Positions 17,861 to 50,093 of a stretch of DNA of 52,952 nucleotides are shown piece by piece; within the stretch, counting starts at the first letter, position 1, and each line of letters opens with the position of its first letter. Both the position numbers and the translations under genes were made by a program. Source of the DNA: Bdellovibrio sp. (lineage in GTDB: Bacteria > UBA10199 > 2-02-FULL-44-16 > DYJF01); NCBI GenBank assembly GCA_020723205.1, contig DYJF01000007.1, forward strand, positions 1 through 52,952. The letters are read 5' to 3'. The notes below the pieces were generated by a model. The model saw only the letters and a program-made list of their open reading frames with translations, did not search any database and was not told where the DNA came from.

Positions 17861-18838
17861 CTATTTTTTGAATTCCTGCAAGATCTCCCGCAGCAAATTG
17901 GAAGGATGTTTCCATGCGCGGACGGAGAAGGGAACGATGCAGCCGCACCTGTCGCAATCGGCCTTGGGGCCTATCACGCAGGGTTTTTTGACGTTGCCTT
18001 CCGCATCAAATGCGGTTCCGTGTTTCACGAACACGCAATTTTTCCCGATCGACTTGTGCCTTTCGCCGGACCTCATGAGATTGAAGGTCATAGGCGGGGC
18101 GCCTATGAATTCCCTGTAACGGCCCCTCTTAAGATCGGAGAGTTTTTCAAGGATACGGTCGCGCTCCTCAAAAGTGAGCCAGAGACCGACAGAGGGGACG
18201 GTCCCCTTTTTAACAGGGGGATCGTCCCCGATAATGGGCGTGAAAAAATCGAAGAGGACGTGGCGGATATTGGGGATACGGCTCCATTCATCAAGAAGGG
18301 CGTCTATGCAATCCACGTTGGCCCTGTTCAAACAACAGGCGATGGCGACATTGAGACCTTTGATGCTCGAGACGTTCTTTTTGATCTTGGCGTATGTGCC
18401 CTTTCCGCGGATCGAATCATGGTACTCTTCCGTGCCGTCAACAGAGACATGGAACTCGACGTCCGGCCAAAAGGGCAAGGGCAGCGTGCCGTTCGTCACG
18501 ACCCTGTTGGCGCGGAAAAAACGGCGCCCCTTCTCGATCAGTTCGCGACGTAAGAGCGGTTCACCGCCTACCCAGGTGCAGCTGTAAAAGGGTTTTTTGC
18601 CCTTTTGCATCGCTTCGATCTTTTTCAGCCATTCCTCATCGCCAAGCTCCTTTTTTCCCTCCTGATCGTAGGAGAAAAAGTAGCAGTGCCCGCAGCGCAG
18701 ATTGCACTTCGTGGTCACATCTATCGAGCAGAACGTATTCTTGGGCAGCGGCGCCGCCATTAGGACCAGTCGCGGCAGGATTTTCCCCCGCCAGAACGGG
18801 TGGTTAGCTTTCGAAGGGTTGACTATCGTATTATCCAT
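17861..18838 (-). CDS. Radical SAM protein with SPASM-like C-terminus
   Basis: TTKCNLRCGHCYFF (CxxxCxxC), WVGGEPLLR, C-terminal CVIGPKADCDRCGC. Confidence 0.88.
   Translation of the reverse strand: MDNTIVNPSKANHPFWRGKILPRLVLMAAPLPKNTFCSIDVTTKCNLRCGHCYFFSYDQEGKKELGDEEWLKKIEAMQKGKKPFYSCTWVGGEPLLRRELIEKGRRFFRANRVVTNGTLPLPFWPDVEFHVSVDGTEEYHDSIRGKGTYAKIKKNVSSIKGLNVAIACCLNRANVDCIDALLDEWSRIPNIRHVLFDFFTPIIGDDPPVKKGTVPSVGLWLTFEERDRILEKLSDLKRGRYREFIGAPPMTFNLMRSGERHKSIGKNCVFVKHGTAFDAEGNVKKPCVIGPKADCDRCGCIVPFSVRAWKHPSNLLREILQEFKK
18194..18229. repeat. Double palindrome GGGGACGGTCCCC / GGGGATCGTCCCC inside a CDS
   Basis: 18194-18206 GGGGAC-G-GTCCCC and 18217-18229 GGGGA-TCG-TCCCC, translated as GDDPPVKKGTVPS. 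Confidence 0.85.
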
Positions 18839-18887
18839 AGGTTATGGAGCCATATTCTATCGGGGCGCCTTTAGGCAAGGAGAATAA

Positions 18888-21215
18888 ATGGGTCTGTTAG
18901 GTCTTAATCCCAAGGTCTGGATAACGCTTGGTCCGGTACTTTTCATAAATCTGGTTCTCTTCATATCCCTGCTGGCCTACACATTTACCGGCAGGAAACG
19001 CAAAAGAGACGTTCCTGAAGCGGCAAAGAGACACACTTCAAAGTTTCTGGCCGGACATTTCAAGGAGTGGTGGGTCTTCACGACGGACCCCGTTGCGAAG
19101 CTCTTCGTGCGCATGGGGGTCAGGCCCAGCACCCTTACCTTTATAGGGTTCCTTTTCAGCGCGGCAGCGGCTCTCCTCTTCGCAAAGGGTCTGTTCGGAT
19201 TCGCCGGCTGGACGATGATCTTCGGAGCGACCTTCGATATCTTCGACGGACGCGTCGCACGCCTGACTGGACAGGAATCCCGCTCCGGCGCGTTCTACGA
19301 TTCCGTCATGGACCGCTTCGGCGAAGGGGTATGCTTTCTGGGGCTGGCCTTCTATTTCCACTCGAGCTGGATACTCTTCTTTGTCGTGGCTGGCCTCATC
19401 GGCTCAATGCTCGTATCATACACGCGCGCCCGCGGCGAAAGCGTGGGCATCATCTGCAAGGGTGGCGCGATGCAGCGTCCGGAACGCATCGTGTACTTAG
19501 GCGTGTCGTCGGTGTTCGATCCCTTGACGAACATCGCGCTCGCGAGCTGGTTCGCCGCGCCGCCCCCTCTTCTGCTCATAGGCGCGATCATAATAATCGC
19601 CGTCATGACCAATGTCACCGCGGTCCATCGCATGATCTTCATCATGAACGCGCTCGACACCGCGGATAAACCCGAACGCGAGACGATCCCGCAGATACTG
19701 ACAAGACTTTCAACGCCCGAAGGGCGCGAGGCGTTCTTCGCAAAGGCGAAATACGGCTACGACAGGACGAGAACCTCGTTCGCGCACGTGATCCAATTCG
19801 TGCTCGACGGCGCGGACACAAGGACCTTAAAAGAGCTTCTGGACAGGGGGGACCTGCCTAACATCTCGGAACACGTCGTCCAAAAAGGCGGATTTTACGA
19901 AGCGGTCAGCTGTTTTCCCTCGACTACCGGTCCCTCGTTCACGCCCTTTGTAACCGGCTGTTTTCCGGGTACCTGCAACGTGCCGGCGGCCAGATGGTTC
20001 GACAGGTCGATATCTTCCGCGCGCGTTCTGACGCTAAACCGTTTTCGCGACTATCTGGGCTGGGGCGCTTACGCAATGGATTTCGATCTTTCCAAATCGG
20101 TACGCACGGTCTTCGAGTATTCCCGCCGCGCCGTTAACATATTCGGGATAGTCAATCGCGGCTGCGGCATCATCCGCGATCCGGCGTTCTTCCGCCTGCA
20201 CTCGTTATTCGGAAGTTCCAGACGCGATACGGACTTAACCGAGCTCGAGGATGTGGCGTTCCAGTGGTTCGAGGACGCGACGTGGCGCGACGCAGACTAC
20301 GTCTTTTACTCGTTCCCGTCTGTGGACGTCGCCGGCGACGACAACTCCTCTGTCTACAGGAGGTTCGATGACGTGGTCGGCAGGGCGGTCGCGCTCTTAA
20401 AAGAGCACGGCAAATATGATAACACCGCGATACTTATAACGAGCGACCACGGGCATGGGACCTTTGAACGCTCCTTTGACCTGACGCGCGCGCTTGAAAA
20501 GCTTATGCCGACGCTTAGATATCCTGCAAAACTTCGACAGTGGGAGGATGCGGACGCCATTCCGCTCGTATCCGGCACTTCAATGGCGCACCTCTATTTG
20601 AGAAAGGGCGCCCAGTGGGACGAGAAATATCTCTTTGAGGAGATCGAAACGGCCGGCATAACCGGGGCCCTGTTCGACCATCCCGAGATAGGGATCATCG
20701 CCGGAAGAAGCGCCGGCGGCGGGATCAACGTCCTTTCAAGGAAAGGCAGGGCGCACATAGTCGAGGATGCCGACGGGCGCATCACCTACATTATGAACGG
20801 CGGCGATCCATTCGGTTATCAGGACATTCCGCAGACGATCTACCCGGCGAAGGCGCTGGAGCTCACCGCAGCAAGCGAACATCCCGACGGCATCATGCAG
20901 CTCTTGCAGCTTTTCAGGTCCCCGCGGACGGGCGATCTTGTGATAAGCGCTTCGCGCGGGGCGACGCTCGGCGACAGGGTGCACAGGGCCGCGCGTACGC
21001 ACGGTTCGCTGTTGCGCGAGCATCTCATGGTGCCGTTCCTGTCGAACATTCCCGTCGAAACGAAGCATCTGCGAACCGCCGACGCGTTCGCGCTTATACT
21101 TGACATCTTCGGCATAGAGGCGGAACACAAGATAGACGGGAGAGTTCCCCTGTGGCATACAAAGAGGTCCGCGGCGGGTGCGTTGGAAAGGGAGAGGTCA
21201 TGCCAAAGCGTTTGA
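18888..21215 (+). CDS. Fusion: CDP-alcohol phosphatidyltransferase (N-terminal) and alkaline-phosphatase-superfamily phosphodiesterase (C-terminal)
   Basis: DGRVARLTGQESRSGAFYDSVMD matches DGx2ARx8Gx3Dx3D; C-terminal VIQFVLDGADTRTLKELLDRGDLPNI..FPSTTGPSFTPFVTG and ILITSDHGHGTF. Confidence 0.87.
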   Translation: MGLLGLNPKVWITLGPVLFINLVLFISLLAYTFTGRKRKRDVPEAAKRHTSKFLAGHFKEWWVFTTDPVAKLFVRMGVRPSTLTFIGFLFSAAAALLFAKGLFGFAGWTMIFGATFDIFDGRVARLTGQESRSGAFYDSVMDRFGEGVCFLGLAFYFHSSWILFFVVAGLIGSMLVSYTRARGESVGIICKGGAMQRPERIVYLGVSSVFDPLTNIALASWFAAPPPLLLIGAIIIIAVMTNVTAVHRMIFIMNALDTADKPERETIPQILTRLSTPEGREAFFAKAKYGYDRTRTSFAHVIQFVLDGADTRTLKELLDRGDLPNISEHVVQKGGFYEAVSCFPSTTGPSFTPFVTGCFPGTCNVPAARWFDRSISSARVLTLNRFRDYLGWGAYAMDFDLSKSVRTVFEYSRRAVNIFGIVNRGCGIIRDPAFFRLHSLFGSSRRDTDLTELEDVAFQWFEDATWRDADYVFYSFPSVDVAGDDNSSVYRRFDDVVGRAVALLKEHGKYDNTAILITSDHGHGTFERSFDLTRALEKLMPTLRYPAKLRQWEDADAIPLVSGTSMAHLYLRKGAQWDEKYLFEEIETAGITGALFDHPEIGIIAGRSAGGGINVLSRKGRAHIVEDADGRITYIMNGGDPFGYQDIPQTIYPAKALELTAASEHPDGIMQLLQLFRSPRTGDLVISASRGATLGDRVHRAARTHGSLLREHLMVPFLSNIPVETKHLRTADAFALILDIFGIEAEHKIDGRVPLWHTKRSAAGALERERSCQSV

Positions 21216-21802
21216 ATCCGGAAGACGTAAGGACGGGCGAAGCGGCGCTCGATGACGCGGTCGACACTTTTATTCAGGGAGCCGGAAAGGTCTCCTCGGC
21301 CCTTTTGGGCATGATCAACAAGGCGGGCGGTCAGATCTACGCCTTGCTCTTCTTGAGCGATGAGCCGCTTTCGCTCGATGAGATCTCAAAACGTTTGGGG
21401 ATCAGCAAGAGCAACGTCTCCATCAACATACGCCTGCTCGAGGATTTCAATCTCGTGAGAAAGGTCTGGGTGAAGGGTTCGAGAAAAGATTACTACGCCG
21501 CGGAACGCGTCTACCCGAAAAAGGTCTTAGGTGATTTTTTGGGTAAGATCAGGGGGACGATAGGCGACGCGATCATGACCATCGAAAGGACTCGCGCGAG
21601 GGCCACGGAGGCCAAGGTCCTGCTCGACGGTTCTAAAAAAGAAAAGATAGATTTCATATTGAACCAGCTGACACTCATGGGCCTTTTTTATTACGCGGCC
21701 GACAAGTTCTTTGACGACTTTTTCACCGGGAAGCCCATCAACGTCGATCTCCTGAGAAGAGCAATATCTAACCCTGAAGAGTTCCAGCGGGGAAGATCCT
21801 GA
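21200..21802 (+). CDS. GbsR/MarR-like winged-helix transcriptional regulator
   Basis: LSLDEISKRLGISKSNVSINIRLLEDFNLVRKVWVKGSRKDYYAAE; overlaps the 3' end of the fusion gene. Confidence 0.78.
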   Translation: MPKRLNPEDVRTGEAALDDAVDTFIQGAGKVSSALLGMINKAGGQIYALLFLSDEPLSLDEISKRLGISKSNVSINIRLLEDFNLVRKVWVKGSRKDYYAAERVYPKKVLGDFLGKIRGTIGDAIMTIERTRARATEAKVLLDGSKKEKIDFILNQLTLMGLFYYAADKFFDDFFTGKPINVDLLRRAISNPEEFQRGRS

Positions 21803-41403: not shown

Positions 41404-42894
41404 TTAGAACGACCCTGTTACGATCGCCAGCAGATTGGACGGGAAGATGCCGAAGTAGGCGACGCCCAAGGCGGTGATTGCAAGGACGGCGACAATGAAA
41501 GGACTCAACGCGTGTGTTTCCCCCTCACCCTGACCCTCTCCCACAAGGGGAGAGGGAATTTTGAAATACATGACGACTATCGGGCGCAGATAATAATACG
41601 CGGATATCGCGCTGTTGATGACCGCGATGACGACGAGCCAGATGTAGCCCGATTTGACCGCCGTCAGGAAGAGATAATATTTTGCGAAAAATCCCACGGT
41701 CGGAGGGATCCCAAGAAGCGACAGCAGGAAAAGCGTAAGTGTCGCCGCCAAGACGGGTCGCCTCTTTCCAAGCCCCGCAAGACGCGAGATGCCGGTCGGC
41801 TCATCTTTTCCAAGTCCCATCACGACCACCACCGCAAAGGCGCCCGCCGTCATGAGTATATACGCGAAGAGATAGAAGAGGACCGCGCGCCCTGCCCCTT
41901 GCGGATCGCTCACTATGGACGGGAACGCGACCAGAATGTATCCGGCGTGCGCGATGGAGGAATAGGCGAGCATCCGCTTGATGTTCTCCTGAACGATCGC
42001 CGCCAAGTTTCCAAGGAGCATCGTCGCGACCGCGCCGACCGAAAGCACCGTTATCCAGACCTCCCCTCCCGCGCTGAATACTGAAACGCCCAGCCGCAGG
42101 AACGCGACGAACGCCGCCGCCTTGACCGCCGTGGCCATGAAGACCGTAACGGGCGTCGGCGCGCCGTCATAGACGTCCGGCGCCCACGCATGAAAGGGCA
42201 CCGCCGCTATCTTGAAGCCGAAGCCGATCAAAAGCATCGCCACGCCGAAGAGATAGAACGACCGCCCCTCACCCGCCATGATCTCCGTCGAGCGTTCGGC
42301 AAGCACCGCGAGGTTCGTCGAGCCGGCGCTCCCGAAGACGAAGGCGATGCCCATGAGGAGGAACGCAGAGGCGAACGCGCCGATAAGGAAATATTTCAGC
42401 GCCGCCTCGTTGGAGGCCGCGCGGTAGCGCAGGAAACCTGCCAGCACATAGACCGCAAGCGACATCGTCTCGATGCCCAGATACACCATGAGCAGATCGC
42501 CCGCCGAAACGAGACAGGCCATGCCCAAGGTGGAAAGGAGCAGGAGGCCGTAGTACTCCGGTTTTACGAATCCGCGCGCAGCAAGATACGGGATGGAGAG
42601 AAGAACGCTTATCGCCGCGGAGAAAAGTATCATGAGCCAGACGAAGACGGAGAGCTTGTCGAAGACGAGCATTCCGAAGGAAAGTCCCGGAAGCGGCGAG
42701 AGCCACCTCCCCCACGAAAGGGCGAACGCGACCGCTATGGCGACGAGCGTCATGACCGGCGTGAAAAGGGAATTCTCCTCTTCGACAAGCGCAGCGGTGA
42801 GAAACGCAATGGCCGCCGCCGCGAATATTACGATCCACGGCAGTCCCATATTGAAGAGCGAGGACCAATCAATCTGTGTAAACTGCGGCATCAT
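41404..42894 (-). CDS. nuoN: NADH-quinone oxidoreductase subunit N
   Basis: ENIKRMLAYSSIAHAGYILV; PFHAWAPDVYDGAPTPVTVFMATAVKAAAF. Confidence 0.94.
   Translation of the reverse strand: MMPQFTQIDWSSLFNMGLPWIVIFAAAAIAFLTAALVEEENSLFTPVMTLVAIAVAFALSWGRWLSPLPGLSFGMLVFDKLSVFVWLMILFSAAISVLLSIPYLAARGFVKPEYYGLLLLSTLGMACLVSAGDLLMVYLGIETMSLAVYVLAGFLRYRAASNEAALKYFLIGAFASAFLLMGIAFVFGSAGSTNLAVLAERSTEIMAGEGRSFYLFGVAMLLIGFGFKIAAVPFHAWAPDVYDGAPTPVTVFMATAVKAAAFVAFLRLGVSVFSAGGEVWITVLSVGAVATMLLGNLAAIVQENIKRMLAYSSIAHAGYILVAFPSIVSDPQGAGRAVLFYLFAYILMTAGAFAVVVVMGLGKDEPTGISRLAGLGKRRPVLAATLTLFLLSLLGIPPTVGFFAKYYLFLTAVKSGYIWLVVIAVINSAISAYYYLRPIVVMYFKIPSPLVGEGQGEGETHALSPFIVAVLAITALGVAYFGIFPSNLLAIVTGSF
41521..41557. repeat. 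Palindromic repeat CCCTCACCCTGACCCTCTCCCACAAGGGGAGAGGG read in-frame in nuoN
   Basis: CCCTCTCCC (41534-41542) / GGGGAGAGGG (41547-41556); translates as PSPLVGEGQGEG. Confidence 0.85.
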
Positions 42895-42903
42895 ATATAT
42901 GTA

Positions 42904-42975
42904 CCCCTCCCCTTTATAAGGGGAGGATGGGCGGGGTAGATCTACCTCCCCTCGCCCCTCCTTACAAAGGAGGGG
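42904..42975. repeat. Three-hairpin composite repeat, copy 1
   Basis: CCTCCCCTT-tat-AAGGGGAGG, GGTAGATCTACC, CCCCTCCTT-aca-AAGGAGGGG. Confidence 0.9.
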
Positions 42976-44492
42976 AAAGCGTTCTCAGCTCCCTTCGACG
43001 CTGTCGGTGAAAAAATTTCAACCCTCTTCGTCAAACCCAGGAACGTGTTCGACGACCTCTCTATCGCCGTTATCCAAGGCCTTGGCCACACGCCTATGGC
43101 GAAGACCAATATGATGATGGGGGCCAAAACCCAGTATTCGCGCACTCGAAGATCCGGAAGCTTTACGTTCTCCTCGTTCGTTATCTCACCGAAGAAAACG
43201 CGCTGAACCATCCACAACATATATATGGCGGAGATCACGACGCCCGATATGGAGACCGCCGAATAGATCGTCCTCGTCTGGAACGAGCCCAGAAGGACCA
43301 TGAACTCGCCCACGAAATTGTTGAGGCCCGGGAGCCCTATCGAGGAGAACGTTATCAGGACGAAGACCGCGGTCAGAACCGGGAGCGTGCGCGCCACCCC
43401 GCCGTAATCGGAGATCATCCTCGTGTGGCGGCGTTCATAGAGCATCCCCACCATCAGGAACAGCGCGCCGGTGGAGATGCCGTGGTTCACCATCTGGAGC
43501 ACCGCGCCCTCAACCGCCTGCGGATCGAGAGAAAAAAGGCCCAGCATGACGAATCCCAGATGCGAGATGGAGGAATACGCAACCAACCGCTTCACGTCGG
43601 GCTGAACCATCGCCACAAGCCCGCCGTAAACGATGCCGATCACGGAGAGGGTCAGCATGAGCGGCGCGAACTTTATGACGGCCATCGGAAAGAGCGGCAT
43701 GGCGAAGCGGTAAAAACCGTACGTGCCCATCTTGAGGAGAACGCCTGCAAGGATGACGGAGCCCGCCGTCGGCGCCTCCGTGTGCGCGTCGGGAAGCCAC
43801 GTGTGGAACGGGACCATCGGCACCTTGATGGCGAACGCGACGGCAAACGCGCCGAAGAGCAGGAACTGTTCGGTCAGGCCGAACTTGTGCGCGTACCACG
43901 CGACGACGTCGAAAGACCCGCCCGCCGCGTTCGACGAGTAGAGGATCGCGGCGAGCATCAGGACCGAGCCCGCCATCGTGAAGATGAAGAACTTGAGAGC
44001 CGCACGGATGCGATCTTTCGAGCCCCACATGCCGATAAGAAAATACATCGGGATGAGGACCACTTCCCAAAAGACGTAAAAAAGGAAAACATCGAGCGAC
44101 GCGAAGACGCCCAGCATCCCCGTTTCCAGAAGGAGGATGAGCGCGTGGAACGCCTTGACGCTCCGGTTTATCTCCCGCCAAGATGCGAGAATGGAGATCG
44201 GTACGAGGAACGCCGTCAGCGCCATGAGCAGGAGCGAAACGCCGTCGGCACCTACGCGGTAGAATATCTGCACGGACGGTATCCAGGAGGCGATCTCGAC
44301 GAACTCGAACTCCCCGCTGCCGGCGAACCCGCCCCACAATTTTCCGACAAGCAGCAGAACGAACGAACTCGTGACGATGCTCACCACCCTTATCGTCTTC
44401 TCATAGCGGGAAGGAATGGCAAGCGTCACCAGCAGGCCGACAAGCGGCAGAAAGATGATCGAGGTCAGAAGATGTGCATATATCCAGTTCAT
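42942..44492 (-). CDS. nuoM: NADH-quinone oxidoreductase subunit M
   Basis: PFHTWLPDAHTEAPTAGSVILAGVLLKMGTYGFYRF; DVKRLVAYSSISHLGFV. Confidence 0.95.
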   Translation of the reverse strand: MNWIYAHLLTSIIFLPLVGLLVTLAIPSRYEKTIRVVSIVTSSFVLLLVGKLWGGFAGSGEFEFVEIASWIPSVQIFYRVGADGVSLLLMALTAFLVPISILASWREINRSVKAFHALILLLETGMLGVFASLDVFLFYVFWEVVLIPMYFLIGMWGSKDRIRAALKFFIFTMAGSVLMLAAILYSSNAAGGSFDVVAWYAHKFGLTEQFLLFGAFAVAFAIKVPMVPFHTWLPDAHTEAPTAGSVILAGVLLKMGTYGFYRFAMPLFPMAVIKFAPLMLTLSVIGIVYGGLVAMVQPDVKRLVAYSSISHLGFVMLGLFSLDPQAVEGAVLQMVNHGISTGALFLMVGMLYERRHTRMISDYGGVARTLPVLTAVFVLITFSSIGLPGLNNFVGEFMVLLGSFQTRTIYSAVSISGVVISAIYMLWMVQRVFFGEITNEENVKLPDLRVREYWVLAPIIILVFAIGVWPRPWITAIERSSNTFLGLTKRVEIFSPTASKGAENAFPSFVRRGEGR

Positions 44493-44495
44493 AAG

Positions 44496-46481
44496 TTATA
44501 GCGCCAAATATCCGACTATGACGACCGCGCCTATCAAAAAGTATAATAGATACTGCTGGAGAACGCCGGTCTCCGCCATGGAGACGATGTTCGCCCAGAC
44601 GCCGACCGCCCGCGCGGTCCCGTGGACGGCAAGCCCGTCGATGAACGTGTCGTCCAAGGTCTGCCAGAGCACTTTCGTCGAGACCCAGTTCAGCGGCCGC
44701 ACGATGAGCCGGTCGTATATCTCGTCCACGTAATATTTGTTGGCGACGAGGCGGAATATGATGCTGATCTTCTTCGCCACTGCGTCGGGCCATTCGCGCC
44801 GCTGCGCGTAGATGACCCATCCCAGAACGACGAAGTGGATGGACCACAGAAGCGTTATCACCATCACTATTATCTCGCGCGCGGCCATGCTTGGATCGGG
44901 CGCGTGCGCGGTCTCGTACGCGATGAGCCGCGAGAGCCAAGCTCCCAGACGGTCGGAGCCGCCAAGGATCTTCGGCACTTCAATGACGCCGCCCAGTAGC
45001 GACAGGAACGCCAAGATGATAAGCGGTATTATCATGGACGTCGGCGACTCATGAACCCTCTTCCATTTTTCAGGAGGGATGTTGCTCTCGCCGAAGAAGA
45101 CCATGCCCACCGCGCGGAAGATGTAGAAGGCCGTAAGTCCCGCCGCGATGAAGCCCACCGCCCACAGGCCGTACTGGCCGCGCTCGAACGTCTGCCAGAG
45201 GATGGCGTCCTTGCTGAAAAATCCGGACGCCGGCGCGACGCCTGCTATGGCAAGTGCGGCGATGACGAACGTCCAGCAGGTCACGGGCATCCTCAAGCGC
45301 AAGCTTCCCATGTTCCTGATGTCCTGCTCGCCGGACATGGCGTGGATGACGCTCCCTGCGCAGAGAAAGAGCAGCGCCTTGAAGAACGCGTGCGTGACGA
45401 GATGGCCGATCGCCGCGGAGAAGGCACCCACTCCAGCTGCCATGAACATGTAACCAAGCTGCGAGATGGTGGAATATGCGAGTATCTTTTTGATGTCGGT
45501 CTGCGTCAGACCCATCGTCGCCGCAAAAAGGGCCGTGGCCGCGCCGACGGTGGCGACTACGGAAAGCGCGAAAGGCGAGAGCGCGAATATGAAGTTCAGG
45601 CGCACGACCATGTAAACGCCGGCCGTGACCATGGTGGCCGCGTGAATGAGCGCGGAGACCGGCGTGGGACCCGCCATCGCGTCCGGCAGCCAGACATAGA
45701 GCGGTATCTGCGCCGATTTTCCGATCGCCCCGCCGAACAGAAGAAGCGAGATGAGCGTCGCCGCCGGGACGAAATAGGCGTTGTAGCGGCTCATCATCTC
45801 GAAGTTGAAATAGCCGGAGCCCACCGGCGCGTTGGCGGAGGCCATCACCGCGTAGACAAGGAAGAGCCCCGCCAGAAAAAAACCGTCGCCGATGCGGTTC
45901 ACGACAAAGGCCTTCGTGCCGGCGCGCGCCTTCGCCTTGTCTTCGAACCAGAAGCCGATGAGAAGATAGGAGCACAGCCCCACGCCCTCCCAGCCGACGA
46001 ACATGAGTATCAAGTTGTCGGCCAGAACGAGCACGAGCATGAAGAACAAGAATAGATTTAGTTCCGCAAAATATCTCGCGTACCCCTCGTCGTGGCCCAT
46101 GTATCCTACGGAATAAAGATGTATGAGCGTGCCGACGCCCGTGACCATGAGCGCCATGACGATGGAGAGCTGGTCAATCTTGAGGCCGATATCAACGACG
46201 AGGCCAGGGGTGACCGCCCATTGCAGGAGCGAACCGGTTATGAAAGAAGGGTCCACGCCCTCGAAGTTCGTCATCGTGACAAAGATCGCCGCGGACGCCG
46301 CGAATGCCAAAAGCGGCAAAAACACTCCGAAAAATGAAACGACCCCGCGGTATGCGCCCATCTCGCGTTTTGCCGTGCCTACGGCGATAAGCGCGTTGAC
46401 GGCCGCGCCCGCAAGAGGAAAAGCGACGATGAGCCACGCCAGCGTCTGTATGCTCACTAATTGGTAGAGCGAATCGAGCAT
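44496..46481 (-). CDS. nuoL: NADH-quinone oxidoreductase subunit L
   Basis: KSAQIPLYVWLPDAMAGPTPVSALIHAATMVTAGVYMVVR; DIKKILAYSTISQLGYMFMA. Confidence 0.96.
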   Translation of the reverse strand: MLDSLYQLVSIQTLAWLIVAFPLAGAAVNALIAVGTAKREMGAYRGVVSFFGVFLPLLAFAASAAIFVTMTNFEGVDPSFITGSLLQWAVTPGLVVDIGLKIDQLSIVMALMVTGVGTLIHLYSVGYMGHDEGYARYFAELNLFLFFMLVLVLADNLILMFVGWEGVGLCSYLLIGFWFEDKAKARAGTKAFVVNRIGDGFFLAGLFLVYAVMASANAPVGSGYFNFEMMSRYNAYFVPAATLISLLLFGGAIGKSAQIPLYVWLPDAMAGPTPVSALIHAATMVTAGVYMVVRLNFIFALSPFALSVVATVGAATALFAATMGLTQTDIKKILAYSTISQLGYMFMAAGVGAFSAAIGHLVTHAFFKALLFLCAGSVIHAMSGEQDIRNMGSLRLRMPVTCWTFVIAALAIAGVAPASGFFSKDAILWQTFERGQYGLWAVGFIAAGLTAFYIFRAVGMVFFGESNIPPEKWKRVHESPTSMIIPLIILAFLSLLGGVIEVPKILGGSDRLGAWLSRLIAYETAHAPDPSMAAREIIVMVITLLWSIHFVVLGWVIYAQRREWPDAVAKKISIIFRLVANKYYVDEIYDRLIVRPLNWVSTKVLWQTLDDTFIDGLAVHGTARAVGVWANIVSMAETGVLQQYLLYFLIGAVVIVGYLAL

Positions 46482-46482
46482 C

Positions 46483-46788
46483 TTACCCCTTTAACAATCT
46501 CATCTCGTCCACATAGACCGTTTGTCTGTTGCGATATATAGATATCACGATCCCAAGCCCCACCGCCGCCTCTGCGGCTGCGACCGCCAGAACGAACAGC
46601 ACGATCATCTTCCCCTCTATGAGAAGGTTCCAGCGCGCGAACGCCAAGAAGGCGATGTTCACGGCGTTGAGCATGAGCTCGATCGACATGAAGATGATGA
46701 GCGCGTTCCTGCGCGTAACGACCCCTATCGCTCCGATTGTGAAGAGCAAAATAGAGAGAACGAGATAGTGATGAACGGTTATGATCAT
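46483..46788 (-). CDS. nuoK: NADH-quinone oxidoreductase subunit K
   Basis: 101-aa hydrophobic protein, [40 protein letters not shown]. Confidence 0.95.
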
Positions 46789-47282
46789 ATCTTTTTCTTC
46801 GCCAGTACGACCGCGCCGACGATCGCTATCAAAAGAAGCACCGATAATATTTCGAACGGCAAAAGGTACGTCGTGACGAGCTGCTTTCCTATCGTCGCGG
46901 GCGACAGGAACGCGTCTCCCGCCATAGGCGCCGCGATGAAGGGCGGCCTCCACGCGGCCAGCCCCAAGACTATCGCCAGATATACCGCCGCAGCCGCGCC
47001 CAATATCTTCGCAAACGTCATCTGCCTCCTCTTTAGGTCCGCTGGATCGGTCCCGATGAGCATGATGACGAAGATGAAAAGGACCATGATGGCGCCCGCA
47101 TAGAGAAGTATCTGCAAAATGGCGATGAAGGCGGCTCCTAATATAGCGAACACTCCCGCCGTCGCCATGAAACATACGACCAGCATCAGCGCGGACGAGA
47201 TGGGGTTCACGCGCGTGACGACCAGGAGCGCCGATATCACGGCGACCGCGGCCAAGCTGTAAAATAAAATGGCTTCAAACAT
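46785..47282 (-). CDS. nuoJ: NADH-quinone oxidoreductase subunit J
   Basis: [50 protein letters not shown]. Confidence 0.94.
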
Positions 47283-47289
47283 AATAACC

Positions 47290-47324
47290 AGACCCAAGAC
47301 GCAAGACACGAGACCTTAGACTAA
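47290..47324. repeat. Heptameric tract AGACCCA-AGACGCA-AGACACG-AGACCTT-AGACTAA
   Basis: Five 7-nt units in the nuoH-nuoJ gap. Confidence 0.8.
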
Positions 47325-47329
47325 AAACA

Positions 47330-48604
47330 TCACGGTCTAAAAACCATGACGGCACTTGTCACAACAACATTGGCAACACCGATAGGTATCATCACCTTCC
47401 ATCCCAAGTTCATCAATTGATCGTATCTGAAGCGCGGGAGAGTCCAGCGCACCCAGATGAAAAATGCGCAGAAGAAGAGCGCCTTTGCAAGCAGAGTTCC
47501 GAGCTGGACCGCGAAGACAACGGCGTTTCCTATCCACGCGGGTATGTTGTCCAGATAGCCCCTCGTCAGAAGGCCGGCCCATGCGATGAGAAGGAGCGTC
47601 GCGAAGAGCATCGCCGGCACGCCAAAGAGAAGCGTCTCGTAGTCGCGAAGGTCGCGGTAGCGGCGACGGAACCTGGAGACCAAGAACATGCCGAACATAA
47701 GAAGCGCGATCCCCGCTGCCGGCCAGCCAATAACGATCACGCCGTCCATGTTCGAGCGCATGAGCTCTGCGGCGACGAACGGGAATTGCCAGCCGCCGAA
47801 GAAGAGCGTCGCTATGATGAGCGAACCGACGATGATGTGCGTGTACTCGCCCATGAAGAAGAGCGCGAAACGCATGCTGGAATATTCGGTGTGATATCCC
47901 GCCACGATTTCCGATTCGCCTTCCGGAAGGTCGAACGGGAGCCGGTTAGTCTCCGCGAAGAGGGCCACCATGAAGAGCACGAACGCGACCGGCTGCCTTG
48001 CGACGTTCCAGTCCCAAATAAGCGCGCCCTGCTGGATCACTATGTCCTGAAGCCGAAGCGATCCGGATAACAAAAAGATCGCAACGACCGAGAGCCCCAA
48101 CGCCACCTCGTAGCTCACCATCTGCGCGGCGGCACGGAGTGCGCCGAGCAAAGGATATTTTCCGCTCGCGGCCCAGCCGGCGATGAGCAGGCCGTACACG
48201 CCGATCGAAGACATCGCAAAGACGTAGATGAGCCCCGCGTTCAGGTCCGCGATCTGCAGATTAAACTCATACCCGAAGAGGCGGAGCGGCTCCGCGAACG
48301 GGACCACCCCGACGGTCACGATCGCGATGAAGAACGTTATCATCGGCGCGATGTAAAAGAGGGGTTTGGAAACGGACCCCGCCGCGATCTCCTCTTTGGT
48401 GAAGAGCTTCAGGGCGTCGGCAAAGCTGTGCACGATGCCGCCAAGCCGCATGCCCAAGATAGACGCGCGATTCGGACCGCGCCTGTCCTGAATGTAGGCC
48501 GCGCCTTTGCGCTCCATCCAGATGAGAACGGGCACGACCCCCAAGATCATCGCGAAAATGATCACCACCTTCGCAAGCGCTGTGAGCAGATCCAGTATCA
48601 TCAT
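47330..48604 (-). CDS. nuoH: NADH-quinone oxidoreductase subunit H
   Basis: WMERKGAAYIQDRRGPNRA, FAETNRLPFDLPEGESEIVAGYHTEYSSMRFALFF. Confidence 0.96.
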   Translation of the reverse strand: MMILDLLTALAKVVIIFAMILGVVPVLIWMERKGAAYIQDRRGPNRASILGMRLGGIVHSFADALKLFTKEEIAAGSVSKPLFYIAPMITFFIAIVTVGVVPFAEPLRLFGYEFNLQIADLNAGLIYVFAMSSIGVYGLLIAGWAASGKYPLLGALRAAAQMVSYEVALGLSVVAIFLLSGSLRLQDIVIQQGALIWDWNVARQPVAFVLFMVALFAETNRLPFDLPEGESEIVAGYHTEYSSMRFALFFMGEYTHIIVGSLIIATLFFGGWQFPFVAAELMRSNMDGVIVIGWPAAGIALLMFGMFLVSRFRRRYRDLRDYETLLFGVPAMLFATLLLIAWAGLLTRGYLDNIPAWIGNAVVFAVQLGTLLAKALFFCAFFIWVRWTLPRFRYDQLMNLGWKVMIPIGVANVVVTSAVMVFRP

Positions 48605-48610
48605 ATCCTC

Positions 48611-48687
48611 CCCCTCCTTTGTAAGGAGGGGCGGGGGAGGTAGAAATTTCTCTACCCCACCTTCATCCTCCCCTTACAAAGGGGAGG
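48611..48687. repeat. Three-hairpin composite repeat, copy 2 (inverted relative to copy 1)
   Basis: CCCCTCCTT-tgt-AAGGAGGGG, GGTAGA-aatttc-TCTACC, CCTCCCCTT-aca-AAGGGGAGG. Confidence 0.9.
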
Positions 48688-50093
48688 AAATATTCCATCA
48701 ACTTTGCCGAGATCTCCACTCCCGAAAGTGCCTCGCCTTTCGGATCCATCGCCTTTTCGAACCTCTGCCTCAAGCCGTTCCTGTTCACGAAAGTGCCCGA
48801 CTGCTCCGCGAACGTCGCCTTCGGAAGCACGATATCGGGATAGTGCAGCCGGAAATCGAAGCGGCTGGTTATCAGCACAATGCCCTTGGGGCCCGACGAT
48901 ATGATGCCCATCAGTTCCCTTTCGGGCAGTTCGTCTATGATGAAAAAGAACCCGAACTTTTTAGGGTCGTCCAGCCGCGACGGCGCGATCTCAGCCACGC
49001 CCTTGCGGTTGGGGTTCTTGTCCTTGTCGCGAATGATGTCGTCTGCAAAACCCGTGTCCTCTTCGAGCGCGCTCATAAAGATATTTTGCGTCCCGACCTT
49101 CCCCCTGAAAAATGAAGCGATCGCCCCGTTCTCCTCCTGCGAGGCGCGCGCGGAGAGGATAACAGCGATCTTCTTCGGATCGGCGCTTCCTATCACCTCG
49201 ACGATGTTCGAGACGGCGTCGTCCCACGTGGTCCTTTTGAAATCGCCGCCGTTCTTTATCATGGGGAAGACGATGCGGTCCTCTCCCATGAGCCGCTTAT
49301 ATGAAAGGCGCCCCTCGTCGCACAGCCACTCCCCGTTGACCGCGGGGTTCTCGCGCGGACGGTAGCGATAGACGATGCCGTCGTCGTGATCCATGAAGAT
49401 GTTGCAGCCGGTCGCGCAGTGGTCGCAGACCGAAGGCGTGGACGTCAGAAGCCAGACCCTCTTCTTGAAGCGGAAGTCGCGGCTGGTAAGCGCTCCCACC
49501 GGGCATAGATCTACGGTGCAAAGCGAGTACGGGTTTTTCAGCTCCGCACCCGGATATACCGATATCTCCGAATGATCGCTCCTCTCCTTTATCGTAAGCT
49601 CGTTCGTCTTCGTTATCTCCTGGCAGAAGCGCACGCATCGCGCGCACTCCACGCAGCGTTCGGCGTCGAGCACGACGTTGGGGCCGGCCGCGACCGCCTT
49701 GGGTTTTTTGACCTTCTTTTCCGTCATACGCGAGGGAGCGAGCGAATGGGAGAAATAATAATCCTGCAGCTTGCACTCGCCGGACTGGTCGCACACGGGA
49801 CAATCGATCGGATGATTTATCAGTATGAACTCGAGGACCGATCTGCGTGTCGAGACGGCCATCTCCGAGTTCGTGCGGACGACCATGCCCTCCTTCACCG
49901 TCTCCCTGCAGGAAATAACTGGCTTGGGCTGTCCCTCCACCTCGACTGCGCACATGCGGCAGTTGCCGGCGATCGTAAGCAGCGGATGATAGCAGAAGTG
50001 CGGGATGTCAATCCCTACGAGCTTTGCCGCCTCGAGGATCGTCGTCCCCTCTTTCGCTTCGACAGTTTTTCCGTCTATGGTTATCTTGGGCAT
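48663..50093 (-). CDS. nuoG: NADH-quinone oxidoreductase subunit G (short form)
   Basis: FCYHPLLTIAGNCRMCAVEVEG, CPVCDQSGECKLQDYYF, CVECARCVRFCQEI. Confidence 0.92.
   Translation of the reverse strand: MPKITIDGKTVEAKEGTTILEAAKLVGIDIPHFCYHPLLTIAGNCRMCAVEVEGQPKPVISCRETVKEGMVVRTNSEMAVSTRRSVLEFILINHPIDCPVCDQSGECKLQDYYFSHSLAPSRMTEKKVKKPKAVAAGPNVVLDAERCVECARCVRFCQEITKTNELTIKERSDHSEISVYPGAELKNPYSLCTVDLCPVGALTSRDFRFKKRVWLLTSTPSVCDHCATGCNIFMDHDDGIVYRYRPRENPAVNGEWLCDEGRLSYKRLMGEDRIVFPMIKNGGDFKRTTWDDAVSNIVEVIGSADPKKIAVILSARASQEENGAIASFFRGKVGTQNIFMSALEEDTGFADDIIRDKDKNPNRKGVAEIAPSRLDDPKKFGFFFIIDELPERELMGIISSGPKGIVLITSRFDFRLHYPDIVLPKATFAEQSGTFVNRNGLRQRFEKAMDPKGEALSGVEISAKLMEYFLPFVRGG

Follow-up and report, generated by a model that had tools for sequence, protein, structure and literature searches.

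A predicted phosphatidylinositol-phosphate synthase whose phosphodiesterase-fold tail is conserved but catalytically degenerate, in a Bdellovibrio sp. genome

The fusion gene and its surroundings

The window, by which we mean the whole stretch of 52,952 nucleotides analysed (contig DYJF01000007.1 of a Bdellovibrio sp. assembly), carries a single open frame with an ATG start that joins a CDP-alcohol phosphotransferase domain to a C-terminal domain of the alkaline phosphatase (AP) superfamily (Table 1). Both Pfam domains scored above their cut-offs: PF01066 (CDP-OH_P_transf) over residues 80-181 (E 9e-14, 52.6 bits against a cut-off of 22) and PF01663 (Phosphodiest) over residues 301-549 (E 2e-17, 64.6 bits against 23). 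The domain content given in a preliminary description of this DNA was thereby confirmed. The synthase core is preceded by an extra N-terminal helix, seen in the hydropathy profile and, over residues 8-34, in the full-length AlphaFold model. Part of the linker between the domains (IPQ..L.T.EGRE) was also found in unfused phosphatidylinositol-phosphate (PIP) synthases of sister lineages; another part, ARYGYDR, occurs in fusions only, apart from a possible remnant in the unfused genome G005.

The same architecture was present as one open frame of 755-779 amino acids in six further genomes of the same class as the window, Deltaproteobacteria MAGs from independent assemblies; the class is probably GTDB UBA10199. 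The fusions are 47-54% identical overall. In a scan of genome contigs, relatives were found with an alignment query, though not with the single protein. All seven fusions occupy one syntenic position between a BBP2 porin and BamA/TamB, and where contigs extend far enough the order is M17 aminopeptidase, methyltransferase, YjgF, response regulator, BBP2 porin, the gene in question, BamA and TamB. Since seven genomes share both architecture and locus, the join is real and old. An assembly frameshift or chimera is ruled out, and the preliminary description was right to treat the frame as a single gene. The full architecture was not found in any plasmid record searched. The open literature searched held nothing relevant on AP-superfamily pseudoenzymes or on this architecture, which, as had been supposed, has no characterised example there.

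Beside the fusion gene lie a divergent radical SAM gene and a downstream gene for a MarR/GbsR-type regulator. The radical SAM protein has C-terminal cysteines, and its gene was seen beside the PIP synthase locus, in two orders, in G000, G003, G005, G007 and G038. The top NCBIfam match of the regulator was the choline regulator CudC, below cut-off, and several class genomes have relatives of it at the PIP synthase locus or close by. Farther away, Complex I (nuo) genes occupy 41404-50093 of the window on the minus strand, with a strong AT skew.

Table 1. Features of the fusion locus, in window positions, and radical SAM genes beside AP470 on other contigs (last row)
Feature	Position	Strand	Remark
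Radical SAM gene, divergent neighbour	17861..18838	-	Kept at this position in four further genomes, fused as well as unfused
Shine-Dalgarno-like AAGGAG	18877..18882	+	Direct reading, just 5' of the fusion-gene ATG
Fusion gene, 775 aa: PIP synthase domain and C-terminal pseudo-phosphodiesterase domain	18888..21215	+	
Extra N-terminal transmembrane helix, about residues 12-30, then K/R-rich GRKRKRD	18921..18977	+	Hydropathy
PIP synthase (CDP-alcohol phosphotransferase) domain, about residues 60-258	19065..19661	+	
CDP-alcohol phosphotransferase signature, D117 to D142	19236..19313	+	Invariant in 52/52 sequences compared, 7 fusions included
R200, equivalent of inositol-phosphate-binding R153 of RsPIPS (R155 of MtPIPS)	19485..19487	+	
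R248, equivalent of R191 of RsPIPS (R195 of MtPIPS)	19629..19631	+	
Linker, residues 258-300	19659..19787	+	
Alkaline-phosphatase-fold (PF01663) domain, residues 301-755	19788..21152	+	Catalytically degenerate across orthologues
DxxxD (D480, D484), lost metal ligand	20325..20339	+	DxxxH in 44/44 free-standing relatives
MarR/GbsR-type HTH regulator, downstream	21200..21802	+	ORF call starts at 21152 (GTG); in-frame ATG at 21200
Radical SAM genes beside AP470	L236 4803-5903, L238 7380-8396, L240 4841-5809, L243 4618-5616, L245 4879-5850, L247 2281-5656		

Active-site residues of the two halves

The synthase half carries the complete signature D117-x2-D120-G-x2-AR-x8-G-x3-D138-x3-D142 with all eight residues kept, in agreement with the motif reported earlier. 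Furthermore, R200 and R248 were invariant in 52/52 homologues, all fusions included. Their counterparts in RsPIPS, R153 and R191, bind the phosphate of inositol phosphate, and their importance is known from mutagenesis (PMC4634129). The nearest solved structures, by sequence and by fold, were MtPgsA1 and the Renibacterium and M. kansasii PIP synthases. The three top NCBIfam matches were PIP or archaetidylinositol-phosphate synthase models, all below their equivalog cut-offs (NF045883, 121 of 170 bits; NF040950, 136 of 180; NF052561, 143 of 350); the half is therefore named by its residues and context and not as a model-level equivalog. As to context, an inositol-phosphate synthase (PF07994, 333 bits) is encoded in the window's genome at C46:1041-2261 and in 41/46 genomes of the class, and homologues of the synthase half adjoin such a gene in KSB1, Calditrichota and other phyla. 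The window's genome has four CDP-OH_P genes, and the fusion gene is the only PIPS-like one of its subfamily. Judged by homology, the synthase half is a PIP synthase, a more precise name than the one first given to it. Another CDP-OH_P protein of the same genome (L063 3292-4659, 455 aa) has a C-terminal part that resembles a bifunctional inositol-phosphate cytidylyltransferase/DIPP synthase.

AlphaFold modelled the whole protein poorly (pLDDT 66), and the fold of the tail was judged only from an AlphaFold2 model of the C-terminal domain built on 44 sequences (pLDDT 92.1, pTM 0.90). Foldseek matched this model to NPP, to ENPP7 among the ENPPs and to phosphonoacetate hydrolase, and the motifs VLDGAD, FPSTTGPS and SDHGHG are all present, as previously noted. 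The tail is predicted to lie on the cytosolic side, given the topology of PIP synthases, in which it would follow the six-helix core. This agrees with the free-standing relatives, for which we coined the name AP470 when they are intact: they begin directly with the AP domain and have no signal peptide. A second AP-fold paralogue in the window's genome (L059 7142-8998), with relatives in other class genomes, begins with a signal-peptide-like stretch and keeps its catalytic set intact, with Ser as the nucleophile.

The catalytic set D307/T347/D480/H484/D520/H521/H705 reads DTDHDHH in 44/44 free-standing homologues of the subfamily; the more distant free-standing outlier G074, with Ser for Thr, stands outside these 44. 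In the fusions the set was broken in seven out of seven. The window copy (DTDDDHH) has lost one residue, and the other six have lost three to seven (GAAPDCH, SVLGDHH, EA-PLYY, QAGHEHS, GTARDCH, STGRDHE). The window copy thus keeps D307, T347, D480, D520, H521 and H705, six of the seven core residues, the nucleophile T347 among them, which is gone in 4/7 fusions. Of the six metal ligands (D, D, H, D, H, H) it has D484 in place of His. Besides this ligand, about a dozen family-invariant residues have been lost; R310, D312, H529, N564, D693, R695, E699 and H701, each conserved in at least 42 of the 44 free relatives, are all changed along with H484, and the copy does not carry the residue set of AP470. 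A bifunctional synthase-hydrolase would have both active sites intact; here the tail is degenerate. The architecture and fold in the preliminary description stood, but its functional reading, a synthesis coupled to turnover or transfer of the head group, was not supported, the hydrolase half being degenerate in every fused orthologue. Hydrolase or transferase function of the tail is unlikely, with residual activity possible in the window copy.

Loss of catalytic residues did not mean loss of constraint. Identity between fused orthologues was 39-58% for the tail compared with 47-59% for the synthase half, and the tail is without stops across seven lineages. It also has invariant residues specific to the fusions, namely D388 (Ser in the free enzymes), G393, D431, W460 and I558.

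History of the fusion and the free-standing AP470

The fused AP domains form one clade (support 100/99), with the intact free-standing enzyme of G025 as its sister. Monophyly of the fused PIP synthases, in contrast, was rejected (AU p 5e-6); the PIPS domains follow the organism tree as given by the neighbouring BamA. In the BamA and PIPS trees alike, unfused G005 groups with fused G003, and G002 and G008, which are unfused, with the fused G004 and G006; unfused G038 groups with fused G028 in the PIPS tree. The label fused or unfused changes five times on the latter. Because the AP domains are one clade while the PIPS domains follow the species, the simplest reading would be a single fusion with several later losses of the tail. 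For the same reason, neither fusions that arose independently nor a transfer of the fused gene as a whole were favoured; transfer of the AP part alone between lineages would be conceivable. A search downstream of the unfused PIP synthases found no AP remnants except, in G005, the short stretch resembling the fusion linker.

AP470 was found in nearly every genome of the class. Its gene is intact in five of the fused genomes and present as two contig-end fragments in that of the window. Outside the class, strong matches (>300 bits, the next match being at 170 bits) occurred in 17/339 genomes, and every one of the 17 belonged to the 93 genomes that had a strong match to PIP synthase (Fisher p 9e-11, not corrected for phylogeny, the 17 genomes belonging to 13 families). 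An inositol-phosphate synthase was present in 15 of these 17. The gene neighbourhoods recur as well: in the class, AP470 comes after genes identified by Pfam as TolC and MlaC; MlaC adjoins AP470 in G176, and G059 has TolC-MlaC next to PIP synthase. In L202, L208 and L211, genes for inositol-phosphate synthase, PIP synthase and MlaC lie side by side, accompanied by TolC in the last two. Outside the class, at least six genomes have a radical SAM protein different from that of the window next to their free AP470 (Table 1); it could be a third component of the pathway. Radical SAM neighbours were dropped as evidence, the AP470-side and window-side proteins sharing only general radical SAM similarity.

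The PIP route of bacterial phosphatidylinositol (PI) synthesis requires a PIP phosphatase. One such enzyme is known, the PgpA-like BT_1525 from Bacteroides (PMC9246714). In the class studied here, 43/46 genomes have one PgpA gene each, which presumably serves PG synthesis; with a single PgpA per genome, a further PgpA-like protein dedicated to PIP, such as Bacteroides has, is therefore not evident. AP470 may be the PIP phosphatase, and from its distribution it would be the best and simplest candidate for the step from PIP to PI.

Role of the tail and relation to known systems

We favour, with moderate confidence, a membrane PIP synthase that carries a pseudo-phosphodiesterase tail with a regulatory or docking role, and AP470 as the candidate PIP phosphatase. 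The synthase half would convert CDP-DAG and inositol phosphate to phosphatidylinositol phosphate and CMP. The cytosolic tail would descend from an AP-superfamily phosphodiesterase, a paralogue of the free-standing cytosolic AP470 that itself appears tied to the inositol-lipid pathway, with its catalytic and metal-binding residues lost or in the course of being lost. Most likely non-catalytic, the tail might bind a phospholipid head group or nucleotide and so tune the synthase; alternatively, it might dock an active AP470 beside the synthase. DxxxD in place of DxxxH, together with the degenerate sets of the orthologues, therefore points to a synthase that probably has a regulatory or docking tail and not to a two-enzyme fusion. 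Several points weigh against this explanation. The window copy keeps most of its core residues, and residual or altered activity is possible there; repeated loss of the tail fits dispensability; the PIP synthase scores stay below the equivalog cut-offs; and the co-occurrence statistic is uncorrected for phylogeny.

Repeated tail loss, seen in the five label changes of the PIPS tree with which the BamA tree agrees, would also be expected if the tail were the functionless, decaying relic of an old fusion, a redundant hydrolase vanishing lineage by lineage. That lineages differ in which catalytic residues went, and the possible linker remnant in G005, would fit this as well. We nevertheless find it unlikely, as conservation of the tail comes close to that of the synthase half, no stops interrupt it in the seven lineages, and it has conserved substitutions specific to the fusion. 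A tail still active in the window's lineage, either turning PIP to PI at the same membrane face as part of a bifunctional enzyme or acting as a phosphodiesterase of changed specificity, might be imagined from the six retained residues, as Asp could stand in for the His ligand. The co-occurrence of AP470 with PIP synthase, the absence of a signal peptide in free AP470 and the position of the AP domain after the last synthase helix, which should place it in the cytosol, speak for it too. However, H484, conserved in all 44 free relatives, is gone along with the eight other residues listed above, the closest fused relatives are clearly dead, and AP470, intact in five fused genomes and present here as fragments, would already supply the activity; we consider this reading rather improbable. 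The AP superfamily also includes transferases of the LtaS and GPI ethanolamine-phosphate type, and the Thr nucleophile kept in the window copy would suit a synthesis coupled to head-group transfer by such a phosphotransferase. These enzymes work outside the cytosol, on the other side from where the tail is predicted. With the nucleophile lost in most fusions and NPP-type hydrolases as best fold matches, such coupling is highly improbable.

A bolder form of the regulatory or docking explanation is tentative and, to us, rather doubtful: AP470 would be an unrecognised bacterial PIP phosphatase of AP fold, and the dead fused copy would act on PIP synthase, allosterically or by docking, to sense or channel PIP. 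If true, the enzyme of one pathway step would have given rise to a pseudo-enzyme that now controls the step before it. Both the fusion and the co-occurrence suggest that an AP-fold family, unrelated to the Bacteroides phosphatase, could carry out the PIP phosphatase step in other phyla. In itself the fused copy is a natural experiment, a degenerate yet conserved hydrolase domain on a synthase, repeatedly lost, which makes it possible to test directly for a regulatory role.

With MtPgsA1 (6h53/6h59) and RsPIPS (5d91/5d92) the fusion protein shares the CDP-alcohol phosphotransferase fold, the full signature, the two inositol-phosphate arginines and an inositol-phosphate synthase in the genome, but it differs by the extra N-terminal helix and a C-terminal AP-fold tail of 475 residues. 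The tail shares its fold and most motifs with the type I phosphodiesterase/nucleotide pyrophosphatase family PF01663 (Xac NPP, ENPPs, phosphonoacetate hydrolase). Unlike that family, the fused clade has degenerate metal and nucleophile residues, is predicted to be cytosolic and is joined to a lipid synthase. Inositol-lipid synthases with a second domain have other examples: the putative CDP-alcohol phosphatidyltransferase-HAD fusion of Prevotella veroralis (PMC9246714), and a PIP synthase with a C-terminal GtrA domain that we observed in a Myxococcales MAG (L215 928-2433). Their partners are HAD and GtrA and not AP-fold domains; in the inositol-lipid cluster of Bacteroides, BT_1524 too is described as belonging to the GtrA family. 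The closest parallel in pathway is that of Bacteroides, where BT_1523 and BT_1525 are the PIP synthase and the PgpA-like PIP phosphatase (PMC9246714). As there, PI synthesis would take two steps, the first by a PIP synthase that belongs broadly to the same family; the Bacteroides phosphatase, however, is a separate PgpA-like protein, whereas the candidate in the class described here is an AP-fold enzyme.
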